Positions 6,495-14,702 of a DNA stretch of 64,000 bases are shown piece by piece. How positions within the stretch are numbered: position 1 is the stretch's first letter; the number at the start of each line of letters is the position of its first letter. This DNA is from Verrucomicrobiia bacterium. Its GTDB lineage: Bacteria; Verrucomicrobiota; Verrucomicrobiia; Verrucomicrobiales; Akkermansiaceae. The stretch spans positions 1-64,000 of the forward strand of contig JAUIJD010000007.1 in the NCBI GenBank assembly GCA_030431475.1, read 5' to 3'. The position numbers and the translations under genes were made by a program. The notes beneath the pieces were generated by a model, which did not search any database, was not told the DNA's origin, and saw only the letters and a program-made list of their open reading frames with translations.

Positions 6495-6540
6495 ACAAAC
6501 TGGTCTACCTAACTCGTGTGTGGTGCGTCCGCGGGCGTCG

Positions 6541-6602
6541 AGGACCTGAAGCCGGCTCTTTCGGTGTCCTCCGAAGATGCCGGTTTGATCATCCATACTC
6601 CG
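6541..6602. repeat. degenerate half of the 3'-end palindromic repeat
   Basis: GAAGATGCCGGTTTGATCAT matches the right-arm core of copy 1 (GAAGATGCCGGTTTCATAAC) closely, but no opposing arm is clear. It lies between the small membrane protein and the convergent thioesterase. Confidence 0.45.
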
Positions 6603-7022
6603 TCAGAAGTTTCCTTCCACCCACCCTTTTGGGATCCTAACTGGCTTACCCTCAGGCATTTGCACTAGAGCGAGCGCCTGCTTGGCGGTGATCAGCAGCG
6701 CATCGTCGCTCTCGCGGCGCATTTCGAACTCGCACCAGAAGCGGGCGGCCCGGACCTCGCCGAGTTGGCCGTGGATGGTCAGCCAGTCGCCGAGCTTGGC
6801 CGGACGCCGGTAGTCGATCTCGGTGCGGGTGACGACGGGGAAGAGCTTGGTTTCCGACATCTCGCGCAAGTCCATGCCCATCTTTGCGGCGAGGCGCGTG
6901 CGGCAGGTCTCGATCATCCGCAGGTAGGCGAGGTTGTGGACCACCTGGCCGCAGTCGGTGTCGAAGAACATGACCTCCTCGCGGGTGGTGACATCAATGG
7001 CAGCGCTCACGGCGCGAATCAT
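6603..7022 (-). CDS. acyl-CoA thioesterase, 4-hydroxybenzoyl-CoA thioesterase (hotdog) family
   Basis: A 139-aa hotdog-fold protein. The active-site-like segment MFFDTDCGQVVHNLAYLRMIETCR corresponds to the family's Y-D-D-GxVxxxxYLxxxE motif, with the usual catalytic Asp in FFDTDCG. VTRTEIDYRRPAKLGDWLTI is the second conserved strand. It probably hydrolyses short acyl-CoAs; YbgC-type or thioesterase-like activity cannot be told apart. ATG 7022 is preferred over 7046 because the family starts close to the first strand. Confidence 0.82.
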   Translation of the reverse strand: MIRAVSAAIDVTTREEVMFFDTDCGQVVHNLAYLRMIETCRTRLAAKMGMDLREMSETKLFPVVTRTEIDYRRPAKLGDWLTIHGQLGEVRAARFWCEFEMRRESDDALLITAKQALALVQMPEGKPVRIPKGWVEGNF

Positions 7023-7081
7023 GGAGCGTGACGCTGGCGGGCGCAATGTCCGCTTGTCCGACGGCGTAGAGGGTCCCTACG

Positions 7082-8836
7082 ATGCGGATCATGAGACAAT
7101 GGATGCTGCTGGCGACGGCGATGGTGGGAACGCTGCATGGAGCCTTCGTCCCTCCCGAGGAAGGATCGGCGCCGTTCCGTCGGGACAAGGTGCCGGTGGA
7201 TGTCTCGACGATGACCGGCCTTTCCGCCCAGCTCGTGACCCTTGCCGAGCATGCGAACGGCGGCGAGGCCGCCGACGCCCGCACCCGCGCCCAGCTGGTC
7301 GGGCTCGCCCTCGCGCTCGATCCGGCAAACCGCCGGGCCCGGGACCTGGTGGAGTCGATGGAAGCCGGCGAGAATGTGGATCCCCCGGCGGACGGGGCGC
7401 TCAAGGTGGCGCGCAGCCGTGCGTGGAATCTGCTCGGCTGGCTGGAGCAGCCGGAGGCCGGCGAGGACGGTCAAGCGCTCGGTGCCTGCCTTTCCGACGT
7501 GCTCGCCCGGGTCGATCCGGAGCATCCGGACGCGGCGGAGCGCGCCGAGCGGGAGCGGGGCGCCTGGCGCGGCTGGGTGGCGGAGGTGGCCGCCTTCCGC
7601 GATCGGACCCCGGAACCGAACGAAGGCTCGGGCGAGTCGATGGCCGGTAATGATGACGATGAGGAGGAGGAACCCGAGGAACCTGAAGGAGCGAAGCTGC
7701 GGATCAGCAAGGCGACGGCTTTGGTGCCCCTTTGGTACTACGACGATGACGCCAAGGCCACGGTGCTCCGGGTCGTGCCCCTCGAAGTCCGCGGCGAGGC
7801 CCGCGGCGACGGACGCGAGATCCGGATCGAGGGGATGGGCGACAACAACGACGGCTGGCGGCGAGCCATCGGCCAGCGTCTCAGCGCCGCTCTGGAGGCA
7901 CGCCACGGCACGCTGCCGAAGGGTTTGACCCTGCGCTACTCCCTCCCGAAGGGCGTGGCCCCGAGCTCGCGCAACCATGGCGGCGGAACCGCCTCGATGC
8001 TGGTGGCCGCCGATGCCCTCTTCACCGGCGTGGAGCCGGGGGCGGCCGTGCTGGGCGAGGTCGACGAAGACGGCGGGATCGGCCTGCCGGTGGGCTTCTG
8101 GCAGACCTTGCGCCAATTGGCGGATCTGAAAGGGGGCCGCCTGATCCTGCCGGCGGATGCGATGGATTTCCTGCCGCCATTGCTGACGCTCGACAAGGCC
8201 GAGTTCTTCATCCGCCAAGAGGTGCTCCTCGCCAAGGACACGGATGCGATGCTGACCCTGGCGTCGGGCAAGCCGCCGGAGCGCGTGCTCGAGGCCGAGG
8301 AGGCCTTCCGGGAGATTCGGCTGGCGCGCGGGACGCGTTCGCTGGGTGGCTTCGTCGGCTTCGATTCCACCCGCCAACGGCTGGCCAAGATCGTCGAATT
8401 CGCGCCGGAACATGTCTCGGCGAGGATGCTGGCCCTGCGGGGAACCTCGCAGTGGCCGCAACGCCTCGAACGACCCATGTATGCCCGCGAAGCCCGCGCC
8501 TCGCTCGAACCCATGCGGGAGGCGCTGAGCCGTCGCTGGGACGAACTGAGCATCCGCGAGCTTCAGGAAGCGGAGGAGGAGTGCCGCGATTCGCTCAAGC
8601 GCCTCGAGAAACTCTACGGCTCGGTGGCCGACCGCGAGGAACTGCTGGATCCCGCGTACTCGACGGTGAAGACGCTGGCCGGTCTGGTTTCCGACATGCG
8701 ACGCCGCGACGAGAGCTTCCGGGTCGACCGGGCGGTGCTGCCGGTGGTGCGGAGCTATCGGGAGACGGTCAAGTTGCTGACCGACGAGGCCGGGGATGCC
8801 GAGGAGTATCCGATCCCCTTCGATCGGTGGAAGTGA
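7082..8836 (+). CDS. secreted Lon-like (S16-fold) pseudoprotease, paralogue of the next gene
   Basis: A 584-aa protein with an N-terminal export signal (MRQWMLLATAMVGTLHGAF), a helical repeat-like N-terminal half, an acidic linker (GNDDDEEEEPEEPEG) and a domain resembling the Lon proteolytic domain. Aligned by eye with the next gene through the shared ADALFTG/DSLFSG and GEVDEDGGIGLPVG/GDMTADGMVQRIGG segments, the catalytic Ser is replaced by Gly (in NHGGGTAS) and the catalytic Lys by Thr (in FWQTL). Both residues of the dyad are therefore lost. The shared downstream region (APEHVSARMLAL and MPNHLSAKLLLE) supports duplication. Inferred role: partner or regulator of the active paralogue. Confidence 0.72.
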   Translation: MRIMRQWMLLATAMVGTLHGAFVPPEEGSAPFRRDKVPVDVSTMTGLSAQLVTLAEHANGGEAADARTRAQLVGLALALDPANRRARDLVESMEAGENVDPPADGALKVARSRAWNLLGWLEQPEAGEDGQALGACLSDVLARVDPEHPDAAERAERERGAWRGWVAEVAAFRDRTPEPNEGSGESMAGNDDDEEEEPEEPEGAKLRISKATALVPLWYYDDDAKATVLRVVPLEVRGEARGDGREIRIEGMGDNNDGWRRAIGQRLSAALEARHGTLPKGLTLRYSLPKGVAPSSRNHGGGTASMLVAADALFTGVEPGAAVLGEVDEDGGIGLPVGFWQTLRQLADLKGGRLILPADAMDFLPPLLTLDKAEFFIRQEVLLAKDTDAMLTLASGKPPERVLEAEEAFREIRLARGTRSLGGFVGFDSTRQRLAKIVEFAPEHVSARMLALRGTSQWPQRLERPMYAREARASLEPMREALSRRWDELSIRELQEAEEECRDSLKRLEKLYGSVADREELLDPAYSTVKTLAGLVSDMRRRDESFRVDRAVLPVVRSYRETVKLLTDEAGDAEEYPIPFDRWK

Positions 8837-8895
8837 TCCGGAGGCCTGCGGGCTTTTGGCTTTCCAAGCCCTGACGGTGGAGGTATCGGACCCGC

Positions 8896-10665
8896 ATGTT
8901 TTCTCGCGTATTCCTGCTGTTGATTCTCTGCGTCGGATGCCTGTTCGGTCCCGTCGCGTGGGCGGACGCCTACCGGCCGCCGGACCTTGAAAAGGAGATC
9001 TTCGACGTCGAGAAGGTCGAGCTCGACCGCTTCGATCGCTCGGGGGCGGTGAGCTCGCTGATCTCGGTGGGTCGGGATTTCGATGAGGACGACGACATCG
9101 ACTTCGAACTGCGGGCCCACGCGCTGGGCATCGCGCACCGTCTCGACGCCGACAACGACCGCCTGAAGGACGTGCTCGACCAGCTCAAGGAGAAGGGCGA
9201 GGCGATTTCCGAGTCGGCCGACAAGAGCCGCGTGAGCCGGCGTCTTGCCAGTGCGGTGCGGGCGCTGATGCGCAAGAAGGACAACGAGGACAACCAGGTG
9301 TGCGCCGCCTACATCACCGACATTGCCTTGCGCCTCGATCCCGAGGGCAGCTCGGCCGACCGCCTCGGGAAGGCCCGCGACGAACTCGAGGAAGCCGGCC
9401 ACGAGGCCGACTGGAAGGACATGCTGGGTTCGCCGGTCTACCGCCAGCGCAACCCGTGGGAAGAGGAACAGGTGGTCTTCGAGAAGAAGGAGGTCGAGAT
9501 GCCCGGCGGCGAGGGCGACCGCTTCGCCCAGCCGCAGAGCCGCGTGAACGGGCTGGTCGTCCGCCAGCTCGGCAACGGCAACCTCGCCGGCTCCGCCTCG
9601 ACCGTGAACGCCACCGCCCTCCGCGAGGAGGACGTCGACGACCTGCTCTTCACCTTCAACCAGGACGTCGGCCCGATGATGGGCGGCTGCCTCGAGGAAG
9701 TGATCAAGTTCCTGCGCATCCGCTACGACAGCGAGCCGGACAAGATTCCCAGCGGCTACAAGATCGAGCTCGGGTTCCAGGACAAGTACGTGCCCAAGGA
9801 CGGACCCTCGGCCGCGACCGCGTTCACCCTGCTGCTTGACTCGCTGTTCTCAGGCGAGGAGCTCGACGACGACTTCGCCTGCACCGGCGACATGACCGCC
9901 GACGGCATGGTCCAGCGGATCGGCGGGGCCGCCGCCAAGATCCGGGGCGCGACCAACCGCGGCTGCAAGATCGTCGGCATCCCGCTCGACAACGGCAAGG
10001 AGATCGGCGACGTGCTGATCCTCGACGGCATCGACCAGCTGCTCGACATCCAGATCTTCACCCTCGCCGACTTCGACGAGGCCTACGCGGTGTCCCGCGC
10101 CAAGAAGTCCGAGGAGGTCGAGAAGACGCTCGATCTGTTCCGCCAGGTGGCCGATGTGGTCCGCGAGGCCGGCGAGCCCGCCTTGAGCAACCCCAAGGTG
10201 CAGGAGCGCCTGCAGGCGGTGCTCGACCGGATGCCGAACCACCTTTCGGCGAAGCTGCTGCTGGAGAAGGGCAAGGGCGAGGCCCCGAAGATCCTGACCG
10301 TCAGCGGCACCATCAACCAGATCGAGATCGCCACCTCGGGAACGCTCCGCAACATCGGCCGGGCCATCTTCAGCAGCCGCGTCAGCGACGAGGACGAGGA
10401 GGCCTTCGAGTTCGACAAGGAAACGGTGACCGACGCCGAAGACGCGGTCGATGAACTCGACAAGCTGGCCAAGGCGATCGATCCGCGGCTGAAGAAGTAC
10501 CACGCCTCCGTCACCAAGGTCTGCAAATCGGTGGCCGCCGGTCCGGGCGACGACGAGGAGGGCGAGGCCTTCGGCGAGCGGCTCAAGGACGAGCTGGACG
10601 GGGTGCAGTCGACCTACCGGAAGCTGATGGAGGATCCCGAGATCCTCGAGGACATGGGCATGTGA
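8896..10665 (+). CDS. secreted Lon-like serine protease without ATPase domain (S16 fold)
   Basis: A 589-aa protein with a signal peptide (MFSRVFLLLILCVGCLFGPV, cleavage near AWA-DA). Residues about 245-400 form a Lon proteolytic domain: KDGPSAATAF carries the catalytic Ser305 and RIGGAAAKIRGA the catalytic Lys348. The 43-residue spacing equals that in E. coli Lon (S679-K722). No Walker A/B or AAA+ module exists, so unfolding energy must come from elsewhere or substrates must already be unfolded. N- and C-terminal flanks are helical and acidic. It is followed by an HtrA gene, which suggests an envelope proteolysis cluster. Closest known analogues are LonC-type or secreted Lon-domain proteins. 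Confidence 0.8.
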   Translation: MFSRVFLLLILCVGCLFGPVAWADAYRPPDLEKEIFDVEKVELDRFDRSGAVSSLISVGRDFDEDDDIDFELRAHALGIAHRLDADNDRLKDVLDQLKEKGEAISESADKSRVSRRLASAVRALMRKKDNEDNQVCAAYITDIALRLDPEGSSADRLGKARDELEEAGHEADWKDMLGSPVYRQRNPWEEEQVVFEKKEVEMPGGEGDRFAQPQSRVNGLVVRQLGNGNLAGSASTVNATALREEDVDDLLFTFNQDVGPMMGGCLEEVIKFLRIRYDSEPDKIPSGYKIELGFQDKYVPKDGPSAATAFTLLLDSLFSGEELDDDFACTGDMTADGMVQRIGGAAAKIRGATNRGCKIVGIPLDNGKEIGDVLILDGIDQLLDIQIFTLADFDEAYAVSRAKKSEEVEKTLDLFRQVADVVREAGEPALSNPKVQERLQAVLDRMPNHLSAKLLLEKGKGEAPKILTVSGTINQIEIATSGTLRNIGRAIFSSRVSDEDEEAFEFDKETVTDAEDAVDELDKLAKAIDPRLKKYHASVTKVCKSVAAGPGDDEEGEAFGERLKDELDGVQSTYRKLMEDPEILEDMGM

Positions 10666-10719
10666 CCTCGTCCTCGAGGAAGTCTCCGTGCGCCTCGTCC
10701 GCTGCCACGAACCGATATC

Positions 10720-12207
10720 ATGAGTGAGGGTCTTCGCCGTCTCTTCCAGCTGGGGGTGGTGTTCGCGGTCGCTTTCGCCGCGGTGTACTTCATCCGCAAC
10801 GGAAGCGACGGCGTGCGCCGGTTGTTCGGCGGCGCGCCGCCCGCGCATCGCCCGGAATCCTTCACCCTCCCGCAGAAGGCACCGCTCGAGCTCGGAGAGG
10901 TCGAGCTGCTCTCGCGGCTCAACGACGAGTATGCCCGGCTGACCAGTGCGGTGGTGCCCTCGGTCGTGAGCATCGACACCACCGGCATCCGCAACGAACG
11001 CCTGCTCGACGGACTGGGACGCCAGTTCATCCGGCCGGTGCCGACCCAGGGCCAGGGCTCCGGGGTCATCGTCACCCACGAAGGTCACGTGGTGACGAAC
11101 TACCACGTGATCCGGGGCCAGCAGCAGCTCCAGGTCACGCTCCACAGCCAGGAGGTCTATCCCGCGACGCTCATCGGCGAGGACCCGCTGCTGGACATCG
11201 CGGTGCTCAAGATCGAGGGCGAGGGCGATTTCCAGCCGCTGAAGCTCGGCGACTCCGGTCAGGTGCGCCGCGGTCAGCTGGTCTTCGCGGTGGGCAATCC
11301 CTTCGGTCTCGGCGAGACGGTCACGCAGGGGATCATTTCCGCGCTGGAGCGATCCCTGAGCGATACCCAGCCGGGCTTGATCCAGACCGACGCGGCGATC
11401 AATCCGGGCAACTCCGGTGGGCCGCTGGTCAACCTGCAGGGGGAGATCATCGGCATCAACTCGGCGATCTACCGCCCCGACGACCGGGTGAAATCGGGCT
11501 TCCAGGGCGTCGGCTTCTCCATCCCTTCCAACGATGTCCGCGGGGCGCTCCAGGCCATTCTCGAGCGGGGCCGCCCGATCCGCGGCTTCCTCGGGGTCCG
11601 CATGCTCGATCTCGATCTCGACCCCCGTTTCCGCCGCCGCATCGGCTACGCCGGTCCCGGAGCCCGGGTGATGTCGGTGGGCGAGGCCTCGCCGGCCGAA
11701 AAGGCGGGCCTGCGGGCCGATGACGTGGTCGTCCGCTACGACGGCGAACCGATCAACTCCATCGCCGAGCTGTTCACGCTGGTGCAGCGGTCCCGGGTCG
11801 GGGAAACGGTGGAGATCGAGATCTGGCGGGACGGCCAGCAGCAGACCGTGCGGGCCACGATCGAGGAGGCGCGTCCCGAGGAGGCGGCGCCGGAGGAGGA
11901 GGGCGGGGCCGAGCCTGCCGTCCAGCTCAGCCCGCTCGAGATCCTCCGCCGGGTCGGTCTGGTCACCCGCAAGTCGGGAAGTGGGGCCGGGGTGGTGGTC
12001 GAGGAAATCCTGCCCGACTCGATTTCCGCCGGGAAGGTGATCGTCGGCGACCGGATCGTCGGCATCAACGGCACGCCGGTGGTTTCGGTGGCGGATTTCG
12101 AGCGACAGCTCGCGGCATCGGCCCCGGCCCAGGCGACCGCCCTGCAGGTGCTGCGCGGCGGTCAGCGGCGGCGCGTGACGCTGCCGTCGCTCCCCCGCGA
12201 CGACTGA
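10720..12207 (+). CDS. HtrA/DegP-family serine endoprotease with two PDZ domains
   Basis: A 495-aa periplasmic or membrane-anchored protease. An N-terminal helix (LFQLGVVFAVAFAAVYFI) acts as an uncleaved anchor. The trypsin-like domain carries His129 (TNYHVI), Asp159 (LLDIAVLK) and Ser232 (NPGNSGGPL). PDZ1 follows GFLGVRMLDLD and contains VMSVGEASPAEKAGLRADD; an acidic Glu/Pro linker (EEAAPEEEGG) separates it from PDZ2 (VVEEILPDSISAGKVIVGDR). Domain order matches DegP/DegQ. It degrades or chaperones misfolded envelope proteins and likely works with the two Lon-like proteins upstream. Confidence 0.93.
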   Translation: MSEGLRRLFQLGVVFAVAFAAVYFIRNGSDGVRRLFGGAPPAHRPESFTLPQKAPLELGEVELLSRLNDEYARLTSAVVPSVVSIDTTGIRNERLLDGLGRQFIRPVPTQGQGSGVIVTHEGHVVTNYHVIRGQQQLQVTLHSQEVYPATLIGEDPLLDIAVLKIEGEGDFQPLKLGDSGQVRRGQLVFAVGNPFGLGETVTQGIISALERSLSDTQPGLIQTDAAINPGNSGGPLVNLQGEIIGINSAIYRPDDRVKSGFQGVGFSIPSNDVRGALQAILERGRPIRGFLGVRMLDLDLDPRFRRRIGYAGPGARVMSVGEASPAEKAGLRADDVVVRYDGEPINSIAELFTLVQRSRVGETVEIEIWRDGQQQTVRATIEEARPEEAAPEEEGGAEPAVQLSPLEILRRVGLVTRKSGSGAGVVVEEILPDSISAGKVIVGDRIVGINGTPVVSVADFERQLAASAPAQATALQVLRGGQRRRVTLPSLPRDD

Positions 12208-12352
12208 AACCAACCCACCGAATGATCCGGCGATTCCGCCGGACCCTTCTCCTGATGGGGCGGGCATCGCGTCGCGGCCGGCGGCGAAAACTCCGGGCTG
12301 GGAAAAACCCGGCCCTTCGGCTTCGTTTCCTCTCCCGGACCAGGTCCTCTCC

Positions 12353-13684
12353 ATGTCGCGCTCCCAACTGCCCCTCATCCTCACCGCGCTGGTCGTCGGC
12401 GCGGTGGTCACGCTGCTGTTCCTCAACCGCCGCTCGCCGCCGGATCCCACCCCGCCGGTGGAACCGCCGCAGGCGGTGCGTCCGGCGGTCGAGGAGGTGG
12501 AGCCGCCGCCGACCCTGCCCGAGCTGACCGAGCAGGAGGTGGATACCCCCGCGACCCCGGCCGACGCGTTGGAGAATGCCGGCATCGGCGTCGCGAAGCG
12601 CAACCCCGCCGAGCTCGTCGCCGAGATCGGCACCGCGCTGGAGGCCGGCGACCTCGCCGCCGCCGGGCGCCTGATCGGCGACGGGGCCCTCGATGGCGAA
12701 ACCCGCGCCCGCCTGAGCGCGCTCGCGGCGTCCGGACCGCTGCGCTTCGCCCGCCCCGATCCGGCGCGCGAGGTCGGGGAGATGGAGATCAACGCCCGCA
12801 CCCGGTGGGCGCTCCAGCTGGCGGACTCCGAACCCGGGCGCGACCGCATCTTCTTCGACCTGATCCGGGATCAGGGCCGCTGGCGGGTCGACTCGCTGGC
12901 CCTGCCGCCCGGCCCCGGCGAGCCGGTGCCGAAGGCGGTGCTGCTCGATTCGCTGGGAATCGCCGACGCCTTCCTGCAGGCCGCCCTGCGGCAGGAGTTC
13001 GAGCTGGCGAAGGAGTTCGTGGATTCGTCCAAGGTCTCGGACGCCAAGATCGCGGGGCTCTGCATTCTCTTCGAGGAGGGCAAGTACCGGATGCGCCCGC
13101 AGAAGGCCCTGCGCGCGATGTTCCAGCGCGAGCAGCTCGCCGGCTACCTGGTGAACGTGCTCGCCGGGGAGAGCGACGGGATCGCGCAGTTCTCGATGAC
13201 GCTCGGCCGCGGCGAGGGGTCGCCCGACTGGCGCGTCCATGAGATCAACCTCGACCAGCTCCTCGCGGACTACGCGCAGCGGGTCGGCGGCGGCGACGTC
13301 CACTACACGCCGCTGCTCAAGAACCCGCGGGGCGGCGACACCCTGGTGCTCTACTTCGGCTTCGATGCCGACACCCTCACGCCGCGCACCGAGCGCCAGC
13401 TCGAGATCGTCGCGGACCTGCTGCGCATCGACCCCGGCAAGAAGCTGACGATTTCCGGCCACACCGACGCCCTCGGCACCGAGGACTACAACGAAAGCCT
13501 CTCGGCGCGACGCGCCGAGGCGGTGAAGGGGTTCCTGGTCGAGTGCGGGGTGGCCCGGGATCAGATCGACACCGAGGCCCGCGGCCAGACCCATCCGCGC
13601 CGACCGAATTTCACCGAAAGCGGCGAGGACAACCCGCAGGGTCGTCGCGCCAATCGCCGGAGCGAGATCTATCTCGACTTCTGA
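12353..13684 (+). CDS. OmpA-family peptidoglycan-associated membrane protein
   Basis: A 443-aa protein with one N-terminal helix (LPLILTALVVGAVVTLLFL), a Pro/Glu-rich stalk, a roughly 250-residue domain of unknown function, and a C-terminal OmpA-like domain (about 323-443). The peptidoglycan-binding signature is present: FGFDADTLTP, ISGHTDALGTEDYNESLSAR and NPQGRRANRRSEI. It probably anchors the complex to the cell wall. It lies 145 bp after htrA; the intervening sequence shows no gene, only GC-rich sequence. The M23 peptidase follows 19 bp later. Confidence 0.88.
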   Translation: MSRSQLPLILTALVVGAVVTLLFLNRRSPPDPTPPVEPPQAVRPAVEEVEPPPTLPELTEQEVDTPATPADALENAGIGVAKRNPAELVAEIGTALEAGDLAAAGRLIGDGALDGETRARLSALAASGPLRFARPDPAREVGEMEINARTRWALQLADSEPGRDRIFFDLIRDQGRWRVDSLALPPGPGEPVPKAVLLDSLGIADAFLQAALRQEFELAKEFVDSSKVSDAKIAGLCILFEEGKYRMRPQKALRAMFQREQLAGYLVNVLAGESDGIAQFSMTLGRGEGSPDWRVHEINLDQLLADYAQRVGGGDVHYTPLLKNPRGGDTLVLYFGFDADTLTPRTERQLEIVADLLRIDPGKKLTISGHTDALGTEDYNESLSARRAEAVKGFLVECGVARDQIDTEARGQTHPRRPNFTESGEDNPQGRRANRRSEIYLDF

Positions 13685-13703
13685 CGCGCTCCCGGACCGC
13701 CCC

Positions 13704-14522
13704 ATGAAGCTCTTCAACCCGGTCACCCTCCTGCTCCTCCTCGTCGGCGTGGCGATGGTGGCGTTCGTGCTGCTGCGCGATCCGGCCCACCGCCTGCCGC
13801 CGGTCGAATCGCTGGCGAACTACCAGACCGCCGACGCGCCCCTGTTCCTGCCGGAGGACGGCCGTCCGCGGCACCGGCTCCACCAGCTCAGCGCGTGGGA
13901 TCTCGTCGCCCTGCCCCGCGCGGCCCGCTTCGACGCGCCGATGGGTTCCGAGCACGGCGCGCTGACCTACAACGCGCAGCGCTTCTGGGAAATGAACGAG
14001 AAGCGCGGAGGCCACCACACCGGGGACGACCTGAACGGGATCGGCGGCATGAACACCGATCTCGGCGATCCGATCTTCGCCGTCGCCGATGGCCGGGTGC
14101 TCTACGCCGGCGAGCCCTCGCCCGGTTGGGGAAACATCGTCGTCGTCGGTCATCGCGCGCCGGATGGCCGGGCGCTGCAGTCGATGTACGCCCATCTCCA
14201 CCGCATCGACGTCCCGGTCGGGGCGACCCTCGCGCGCGGCGACCGGGTCGGCACGGCGGGCACGGCCAACGGCTACTATCCGGCCCACCTGCACTTCGAG
14301 ATGCGCGAGAGCGACGGGGTCGACATCGGGGCCGGCTACAGCATGCTGCCGCTCAATCGTCTCGATCCCGGAGCCACGATCGAGGCGCTGCGCGGTGCGG
14401 AGGACGTCCACCTGGCCCCGCCGCCCCTGCCGACGGCCCTCGCCCGTGAGGAACCCTGGAACCGGCTGGAGCTTTCCCCGGAGGATGCGGCGAAGCTCGG
14501 CGACATCCTCGGCGGCGAGTGA
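13704..14522 (+). CDS. M23-family (LytM-type) metallopeptidase
   Basis: A 272-aa membrane-anchored peptidase (helix PVTLLLLLVGVAMVAFVLL). The zinc ligands of the M23 fold are visible: H in HHTGDDLNG (HxxxD motif), and HLHF in PAHLHFEMR (HxH motif), with AHLHRIDVPVGATLARGDRVG between them. Such enzymes cleave peptidoglycan cross-links or act in cell-wall remodelling. The close spacing to the OmpA-like gene supports a joint envelope role. The 180 bp after it, up to the converging sulfatase stop, hold no gene; GGCCCCGGGGCC near 14666 could contribute to termination. Confidence 0.9.
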   Translation: MKLFNPVTLLLLLVGVAMVAFVLLRDPAHRLPPVESLANYQTADAPLFLPEDGRPRHRLHQLSAWDLVALPRAARFDAPMGSEHGALTYNAQRFWEMNEKRGGHHTGDDLNGIGGMNTDLGDPIFAVADGRVLYAGEPSPGWGNIVVVGHRAPDGRALQSMYAHLHRIDVPVGATLARGDRVGTAGTANGYYPAHLHFEMRESDGVDIGAGYSMLPLNRLDPGATIEALRGAEDVHLAPPPLPTALAREEPWNRLELSPEDAAKLGDILGGE

Positions 14523-14702
14523 TCCGGAGGGACCCCGCCGGAAAAAAGAGGTGCTGCCAGGGAACCGCGGCAAATCCGGACAAGCTACCGTTGCTCCGAT
14601 CAAGGCCTGGCGGGATTCACCTGCCGAACCTCCACGGCCCCTGACAGCGGGCGGAGTGAACACGCGGCCCCGGGGCCTTGCAACGGCTTTTTCACCCGCG
14701 GC

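Follow-up and report, generated by a model that had tools for sequence, protein, structure and literature searches.

A putatively exported Lon-type protease without an ATPase and a dead paralogue that persists without it in Verrucomicrobiales

Two adjacent genes, here called A and B, lie in a 64,000-nucleotide stretch of a Verrucomicrobiia bacterium genome (contig JAUIJD010000007.1, positions 1 to 64,000; the whole stretch is referred to as the window). The GTDB genus of the window belongs to Verrucomicrobiales and takes in Haloferula rosea (L102), which also carries A and B. A and B are open reading frames (ORFs) on the same strand with 59 nt between them, and they are paralogous over almost their full length (BLASTP E 5e-17; hhalign of the two families E 1.1e-28 over 523 columns). 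Both begin with a putative signal peptide, followed by a helical N-terminal domain, the S16 (Lon proteolytic) domain, and a helical C-terminal domain. A scan of positions 6500-14700 gave no promoter-like sites and three terminator-like sites against 3.2 expected, so operon structure is judged from spacing alone. The features of the two genes are as follows.

7082..8836, + strand: gene A, predicted S16-fold pseudoprotease with a putative signal peptide, 584 aa, coordinates including the stop (ORF, homology to B, AlphaFold2 fold)
7082..7144, + strand: A residues 1-21, putative Sec signal peptide, mature start FVPP (read by eye)
7145..7606, + strand: A residues 22-175, helical N-terminal domain, better conserved than the rest of A (identity 0.556 among 16 genus orthologues; AlphaFold2 helices)
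7697..8278, + strand: A residues 206-399, degenerate S16 domain (AlphaFold2 model, conservation)
7982..7984, + strand: A Gly301, at the catalytic Ser position (alignment; codon GGC)
8105..8107, + strand: A Thr342, at the catalytic Lys position (alignment; codon ACC)
8279..8833, + strand: A residues 400-584, C-terminal helical domain (AlphaFold2 model, conservation)
8896..10665, + strand: gene B, predicted S16 protease without a detectable ATPase and with a putative signal peptide, 589 aa, coordinates including the stop (ORF, Lon_C match, AlphaFold2 model)
8896..8970, + strand: B residues 1-25, putative Sec signal peptide, mature start YRPP (read by eye; hydropathy maximum at the N-terminus)
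8971..9435, + strand: B residues 26-180, N-terminal helical domain (AlphaFold2 model, conservation)
9520..10107, + strand: B residues 209-404, S16 proteolytic domain, where conservation in B is highest (136/196 positions invariant in six genomes)
9808..9810, + strand: B Ser305, predicted nucleophile in a PKDGPSA motif (invariant in a 33-row alignment; codon TCG)
9937..9939, + strand: B Lys348, predicted general base (invariant in the same alignment; codon AAG)
10108..10662, + strand: B residues 405-589, C-terminal helical domain (AlphaFold2 model, conservation)

The S16 assignment of B is direct. Pfam Lon_C matches B at E 1.1e-12 (48.3 bits; cut-off 21.1), and the AlphaFold2 model (mean pLDDT 88.9) superimposes on the protease domain of Escherichia coli Lon (1rr9_F) with Z 21.1 and 2.2 Å over 179 residues. 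Ser305 and Lys348 are 43 residues apart, which we take to be the spacing in E. coli Lon; Ser679 of Lon is named in a PDB title. At an E threshold of 0.01, Lon_C matches 33/33 aligned B-type proteins, and in one alignment the dyad is complete in all eight B-type rows of the family and in nine order-level rows (L081-L089), while the other eight order-level rows comprise one with both dyad residues (L099) and seven without. No ATPase family was matched in A or B by Pfam or the protein-family models. The Lon model aligns with the protease part of B alone, at 43 versus 608 bits, and the SepM model reaches 21.5 bits against a cut-off of 200, with no PDZ match; B as a classical Lon fragment or as SepM is excluded by these cut-offs. 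Fold searches were made with the whole B chain, and their matches were taken up by the S16 domain, which limits what they say on a LonC AAA-like N-terminal region. Given its intact LonA-like site, B probably cleaves protein.

Other genes of this type show some variation. One genome of the genus (G002) carries a second, unpaired B (L080, 5625-7556), which has a near-duplication at the catalytic-lysine helix, KIRGAAVKIRGAA. Three active B-type proteins of family f4 (L083, L084, and L086) have longer N-terminal regions that align poorly with the helical N-terminal domain of B. The second Lon_C match in the window's own genome is a gene that reads like ComM/YifB (L002), and the cut-off for classical Lon (TIGR00763) is reached by 0/18 same-genus genomes versus 8/14 control genomes.

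The A protein is harder to place. Pfam gave no match on A, Lon_C was found in 0/17 A orthologues, and an A profile compared with the sequences of solved structures gave no match up to E 10. Because Lon_C misses all 17 orthologues, the fold of A is visible solely via the predicted structure and the kinship to B. The AlphaFold2 model (mean pLDDT 88.0) aligns with a solved Lon protease domain (1rr9_A) with Z 15.2 and 2.9 Å over 171 residues, and with the Lon-like domains of RadA, ComM, and BrxL with Z 13.8-14.3. The complete Ser/Lys dyad is present in 0/35 A-clade proteins (alignments of 18, 5, and 12 rows); Ser alone occupies its column in 6/35 and Lys alone in 3/35. The residues seen are G/A/S/V/L/N/T/Y/P at the Ser column and T/S/N/L/Y/K/R/F/Q/V at the Lys column; for divergent dead rows these assignments are alignment-dependent, and some letters differ between alignments. 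Invariant residues in the S16 region of A are few (P216, W340, F375, F376, and E380). On alignment and model, A is therefore a predicted S16 fold that has lost its catalytic dyad. The N-terminal stretch of A is just weakly hydrophobic (19-residue average). By pattern, a signal-type start precedes an FRR[DE] motif in 25/34 A-clade proteins, the rest being variants or unresolved, and the mature N-terminus is almost constant in the genus (FVPPxEGxxPFRRDKxPVD). An earlier, sequence-only reading of this DNA had proposed adjacent secreted S16 paralogues without an AAA+ ATPase, one with an intact site and one dead. The paralogy and the S16 fold in both models agree with that proposal, as do the Lon_C match to B, the codons read at the four catalytic positions, the putative signal peptides, and the lack of an ATPase match.

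The two genes differ in how widely they are kept. Among same-genus genomes A is present in 17/18 (the genome without it, G005, is 61% complete) and B in 6/18, such that 11 of the 17 A-bearing genomes have no B; these are 90-98% complete, except G011 (72%), in which the contig ends inside A. A survey of the order covered 152 genomes; it scored no more than 8 or 9 candidates in each and can miss divergent dead genes. It found an A-profile match of at least 186 bits in 20 genomes, all in the window's family. Eight of these 20 have a B-type gene and 12 have none, and no family genome with B but without A was listed in the survey. Combining the genus search and the order survey, all 12 distinct B-bearing family genomes have A. 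The idea that the two genes are found together thus holds in one direction: B was never met without A in the family, but A stands without B in 11/17 (genus) and 12/20 (family) genomes. Obligate A-B pairing as a rule is ruled out by the A-only genomes. Mapped onto a tree of 34 A proteins, the presence or absence of B takes 8 changes to explain, or no fewer than 6 when judged by well supported branches; since 5 of the 34 genomes were found through B, the 17:17 split for B on this tree is not a frequency. In the order as a whole, B-profile matches of at least 250 bits occur in 56/152 genomes (by score, with the dyad not checked in each). Of 47 loci with B relatives in the GTDB genome set, 46 are titled Verrucomicrobiota or its genera and one Blastochloris, and in a phylum sample of 145 genomes (E up to 1e-30) the only genome with a B-profile match was the window's own.

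A is also maintained by selection where B is absent. Three closely related genomes without B give dN/dS values for A of 0.17, 0.21, and 0.26 (N-terminal domain 0.07-0.12), a further B-less pair gives 0.39 for the whole protein and 0.20 for the N-terminal domain, and B-bearing pairs give 0.26-0.42 overall, all with partly saturated dS (pS up to 0.65). The N-terminal domain has the lowest dN/dS of A in 7/7 pairs. Mean pairwise identity in 16 genus genomes is 0.556 for the N-terminal, 0.416 for the C-terminal, and 0.367 for the S16 domain of A, the latter with 9/194 invariant positions; the S16 domain of B in six genomes has an identity of 0.847. The low dN/dS together with the domain identities indicates that A is under selection and is not decaying, and that the strongest constraint lies in its N-terminal part rather than at the old protease site.

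Two neighbours of the pair recur at related loci.

10720..12207, + strand: htrA, trypsin-like protease with PDZ domains, 54 nt after B (Pfam Trypsin_2 and PDZ; synteny)
6603..7046, - strand: 4HBT thioesterase, divergent neighbour of A (Pfam; also beside A-like dead genes in other families)

The gene order in the genus is largely common, mnmG - thioesterase - A - [B] - htrA - ompA - M23, and A usually abuts htrA at the genus loci that lack B. htrA directly follows A or A-B at 15/16 genus loci with readable downstream sequence (the exception is G001; in G011 the contig ends), and it follows A, with no B between, in three further genera (G157, G169, and G179). In the window the genes after A-B on the same strand, htrA followed by an OmpA-domain protein and an M23 peptidase (10720-14522), make up a block that recurs across the genus and may be an envelope operon. 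In other families a like thioesterase lies beside dead relatives at L097, L098, L115 (= G081), L161, G140, G152, G088, G093, and G101. The order at L115 is thioesterase - dead - active - glycosyltransferase; at L161 a like glycosyltransferase, recognized by reading its translation, follows the dead gene, and the active gene is on another contig.

The explanation we tentatively place first, without giving it an even chance, is that B is an ATP-independent envelope protease and A a pseudoprotease turned scaffold or adaptor, for which B is an optional partner and HtrA the commoner neighbour in the genus. According to this model, B would be a Ser/Lys protease with a LonA-like site held between two helical domains, and it would cleave unfolded or flexible proteins, as other ATPase-less Lon-like enzymes do. 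A lost its dyad, as read from its codons, and would then have taken on a noncatalytic role. Its S16 domain might be kept as a fold, plausibly for ring assembly by analogy with the Lon-like domains of RadA and ComM, while binding would be done by the conserved N-terminal helical domain and the near-constant mature N-terminus. A would thus be the constant part of an envelope protein-quality module, with B as an optional active subunit or client protease and HtrA as the protease most often linked to A in the window's genus. The persistence of A, the selection on it, and the place of its constraint, together with the analogy just mentioned, suggest the scaffold or adaptor role.

Several observations weigh against this explanation. 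A is present in 17/17 B-bearing genomes checked of the family or the A clade, including five found through B (adjacent at L103 and L109, elsewhere in the genome for L106-L108), and in 17/17 pairs of neighbouring dead and active genes the dead one comes first; both favour direct cooperation of A and B. Within the closest B-less trio, conservation is lowest in the C-terminal part, with an identity of 0.67-0.70 versus 0.73-0.77 for S16 and a higher dN/dS, which implies that the S16 domain of A is still constrained. The saturation of dS noted above softens the selection argument. htrA beside A was not found in G001, G023, G038, or G039, nor at 8 of 11 readable other-genus loci (a twelfth, G174, ends too soon to read), and the A-htrA linkage may be mere synteny by descent.

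The first alternative is a hetero-oligomeric S16 ring of A and B, whose dead subunit gates or presents substrates to the active one, as the sequence-only reading had suggested. The adjacency of A and B on the same strand, 59 nt apart, fits such a ring, as do the absence of B without A in the family, the constraint on the S16 domain of A in close comparisons, and the dead-first order. The 17 pairs with this order comprise ten with an A-clade gene (G000, G002, G006, G008, G014, G017, G023, L103, L109, and G160), five of family f2 (G081, G098, G077, G164, and G057), and L113 and L116, and they should not be counted as 17 separate events; an additional locus (G167) is truncated by the end of its contig. 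Moreover, four f2 genomes (L228, L229, L230, and L231) have adjacent pairs in which the dead copy reads GPAA or GPGA, with Ser changed to Ala/Gly and Lys to Arg. Such milder losses might be expected of a subunit still packing into a ring, and they are perhaps a second, younger loss of the dyad. However, selection maintains A in genomes that lack B, so membership of an obligate hetero-oligomer cannot be the sole function of A. In the six paired genomes S16 identity is 0.382 for A versus 0.847 for B, which is odd for a common ring interface, and five f4 genomes (G030, G034, G037, G063, and G109) have a B-type but no A-profile match, although divergent dead genes could be missed. As a full account the mixed ring is therefore unlikely. 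What survives is a putative facultative A-B hetero-oligomer, a state that may occur in B-bearing genomes and is consistent with B implying A and with the recurring dead-first order, but that is not the whole story since A is kept without B.

The second alternative is that A works with HtrA as its chaperone, adaptor, or regulator, and that B is a functionally unrelated, accidental neighbour. The linkage described above speaks for it, in particular since it is also seen where B is absent or elsewhere. Against it, the whole block from mnmG to M23 is syntenic in the genus so that the linkage may reflect descent, htrA is not beside A at most readable other-genus loci, and B was never met without A in the family. 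We regard it as quite unlikely.

A third, distinctly unlikely alternative is that A and B, as tandem duplicates, owe their common locus to descent and act separately, without interacting. Active-active tandems (L125, L134, and G175) and a dead-dead tandem (L160) do exist in the order, and B is unlinked to A in G038-G040, G121, G157, G169, and G179; in the last four B is also shorter (391-533 aa frames, dyad present). The consistent dead-first order and the one-way co-occurrence argue against separate roles. The trees speak to the origin of the dead copies. In the first tree all actives fall on one side of a branch (support 97/79); in a larger tree, with the two catalytic columns left out, the four dead f2 genes lie inside the actives, and a test on this tree did not reject one clade of actives (p-AU 0.386). 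The trees are unrooted and several dead rows are long branches.

That A kept or gained another catalytic activity through different residues is very improbable: A is conserved and selected, but its S16 domain has few invariant residues and the old active site is variable. Finally, although A evolves faster than B when the same pairs of genomes are compared (e.g., identity 0.53 vs 0.77), a decaying pseudogene is hardly conceivable and is excluded by the presence of A without inner stops in 17/18 same-genus genomes (G011 being cut by a contig end) and by dN/dS of 0.17-0.42.

Returning to A as scaffold or adaptor, the usual view of pseudoproteases is that they are dependents of an active partner. 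A broader version, which is rather doubtful, holds that Verrucomicrobiales have an envelope module with a noncatalytic Lon paralogue as its fixed core, around which interchangeable active proteases (ATP-free Lon and HtrA) are gained and lost; A would then be a pseudoprotease that has outlived its protease. As B was gained or lost 6-8 times on the tree of A, the role of a lone dead protease can be asked of natural strains with and without B. The pair also adds to the Lon family an ATP-free branch with putative signal peptides. ATPase-less S16 proteases as such are known already; our literature searches gave no description of this A/B pair.

How do A and B compare with known systems? ClpR and ClpP are dead and active paralogues of one protease fold that assemble in mixed rings. 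The dead Clp subunit acts within its mixed ring, whereas A survives without its active paralogue. LonA and LonB have the AAA+ ATPase in the same chain, while no ATPase family was matched in B. The closest known ATP-free protease to B is LonC. MtaLonC, as described in the cited part of PMC3391209, has an S16 proteolytic domain, is ATP-free, forms a chambered hexamer, and degrades unfolded protein. B is like LonC in its S16 domain, but its flanking domains are helical, and it has a putative signal peptide and a dead paralogue. YlbL is a PDZ-S16 protease, like SepM, which is the closest S16 enzyme that acts outside the cytoplasm. SepM has an S16 domain without an AAA+ ATPase, a transmembrane segment, and a PDZ domain, and acts on an extracellular peptide, as stated in the cited part of PMC11197336. 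B shares with it the S16 domain without AAA+, but has no PDZ match and, at 21.5 bits, falls short of the SepM cut-off (200). In RadA and ComM, the cited part of PMC11612176 reports that the Lon-like domain is required for oligomerization. A is like RadA, ComM, and BrxL in predicted fold (Z 13.8-14.3); however, their domains are fused to an ATPase and act on DNA, whereas A starts with a putative signal peptide and lacks an ATPase.

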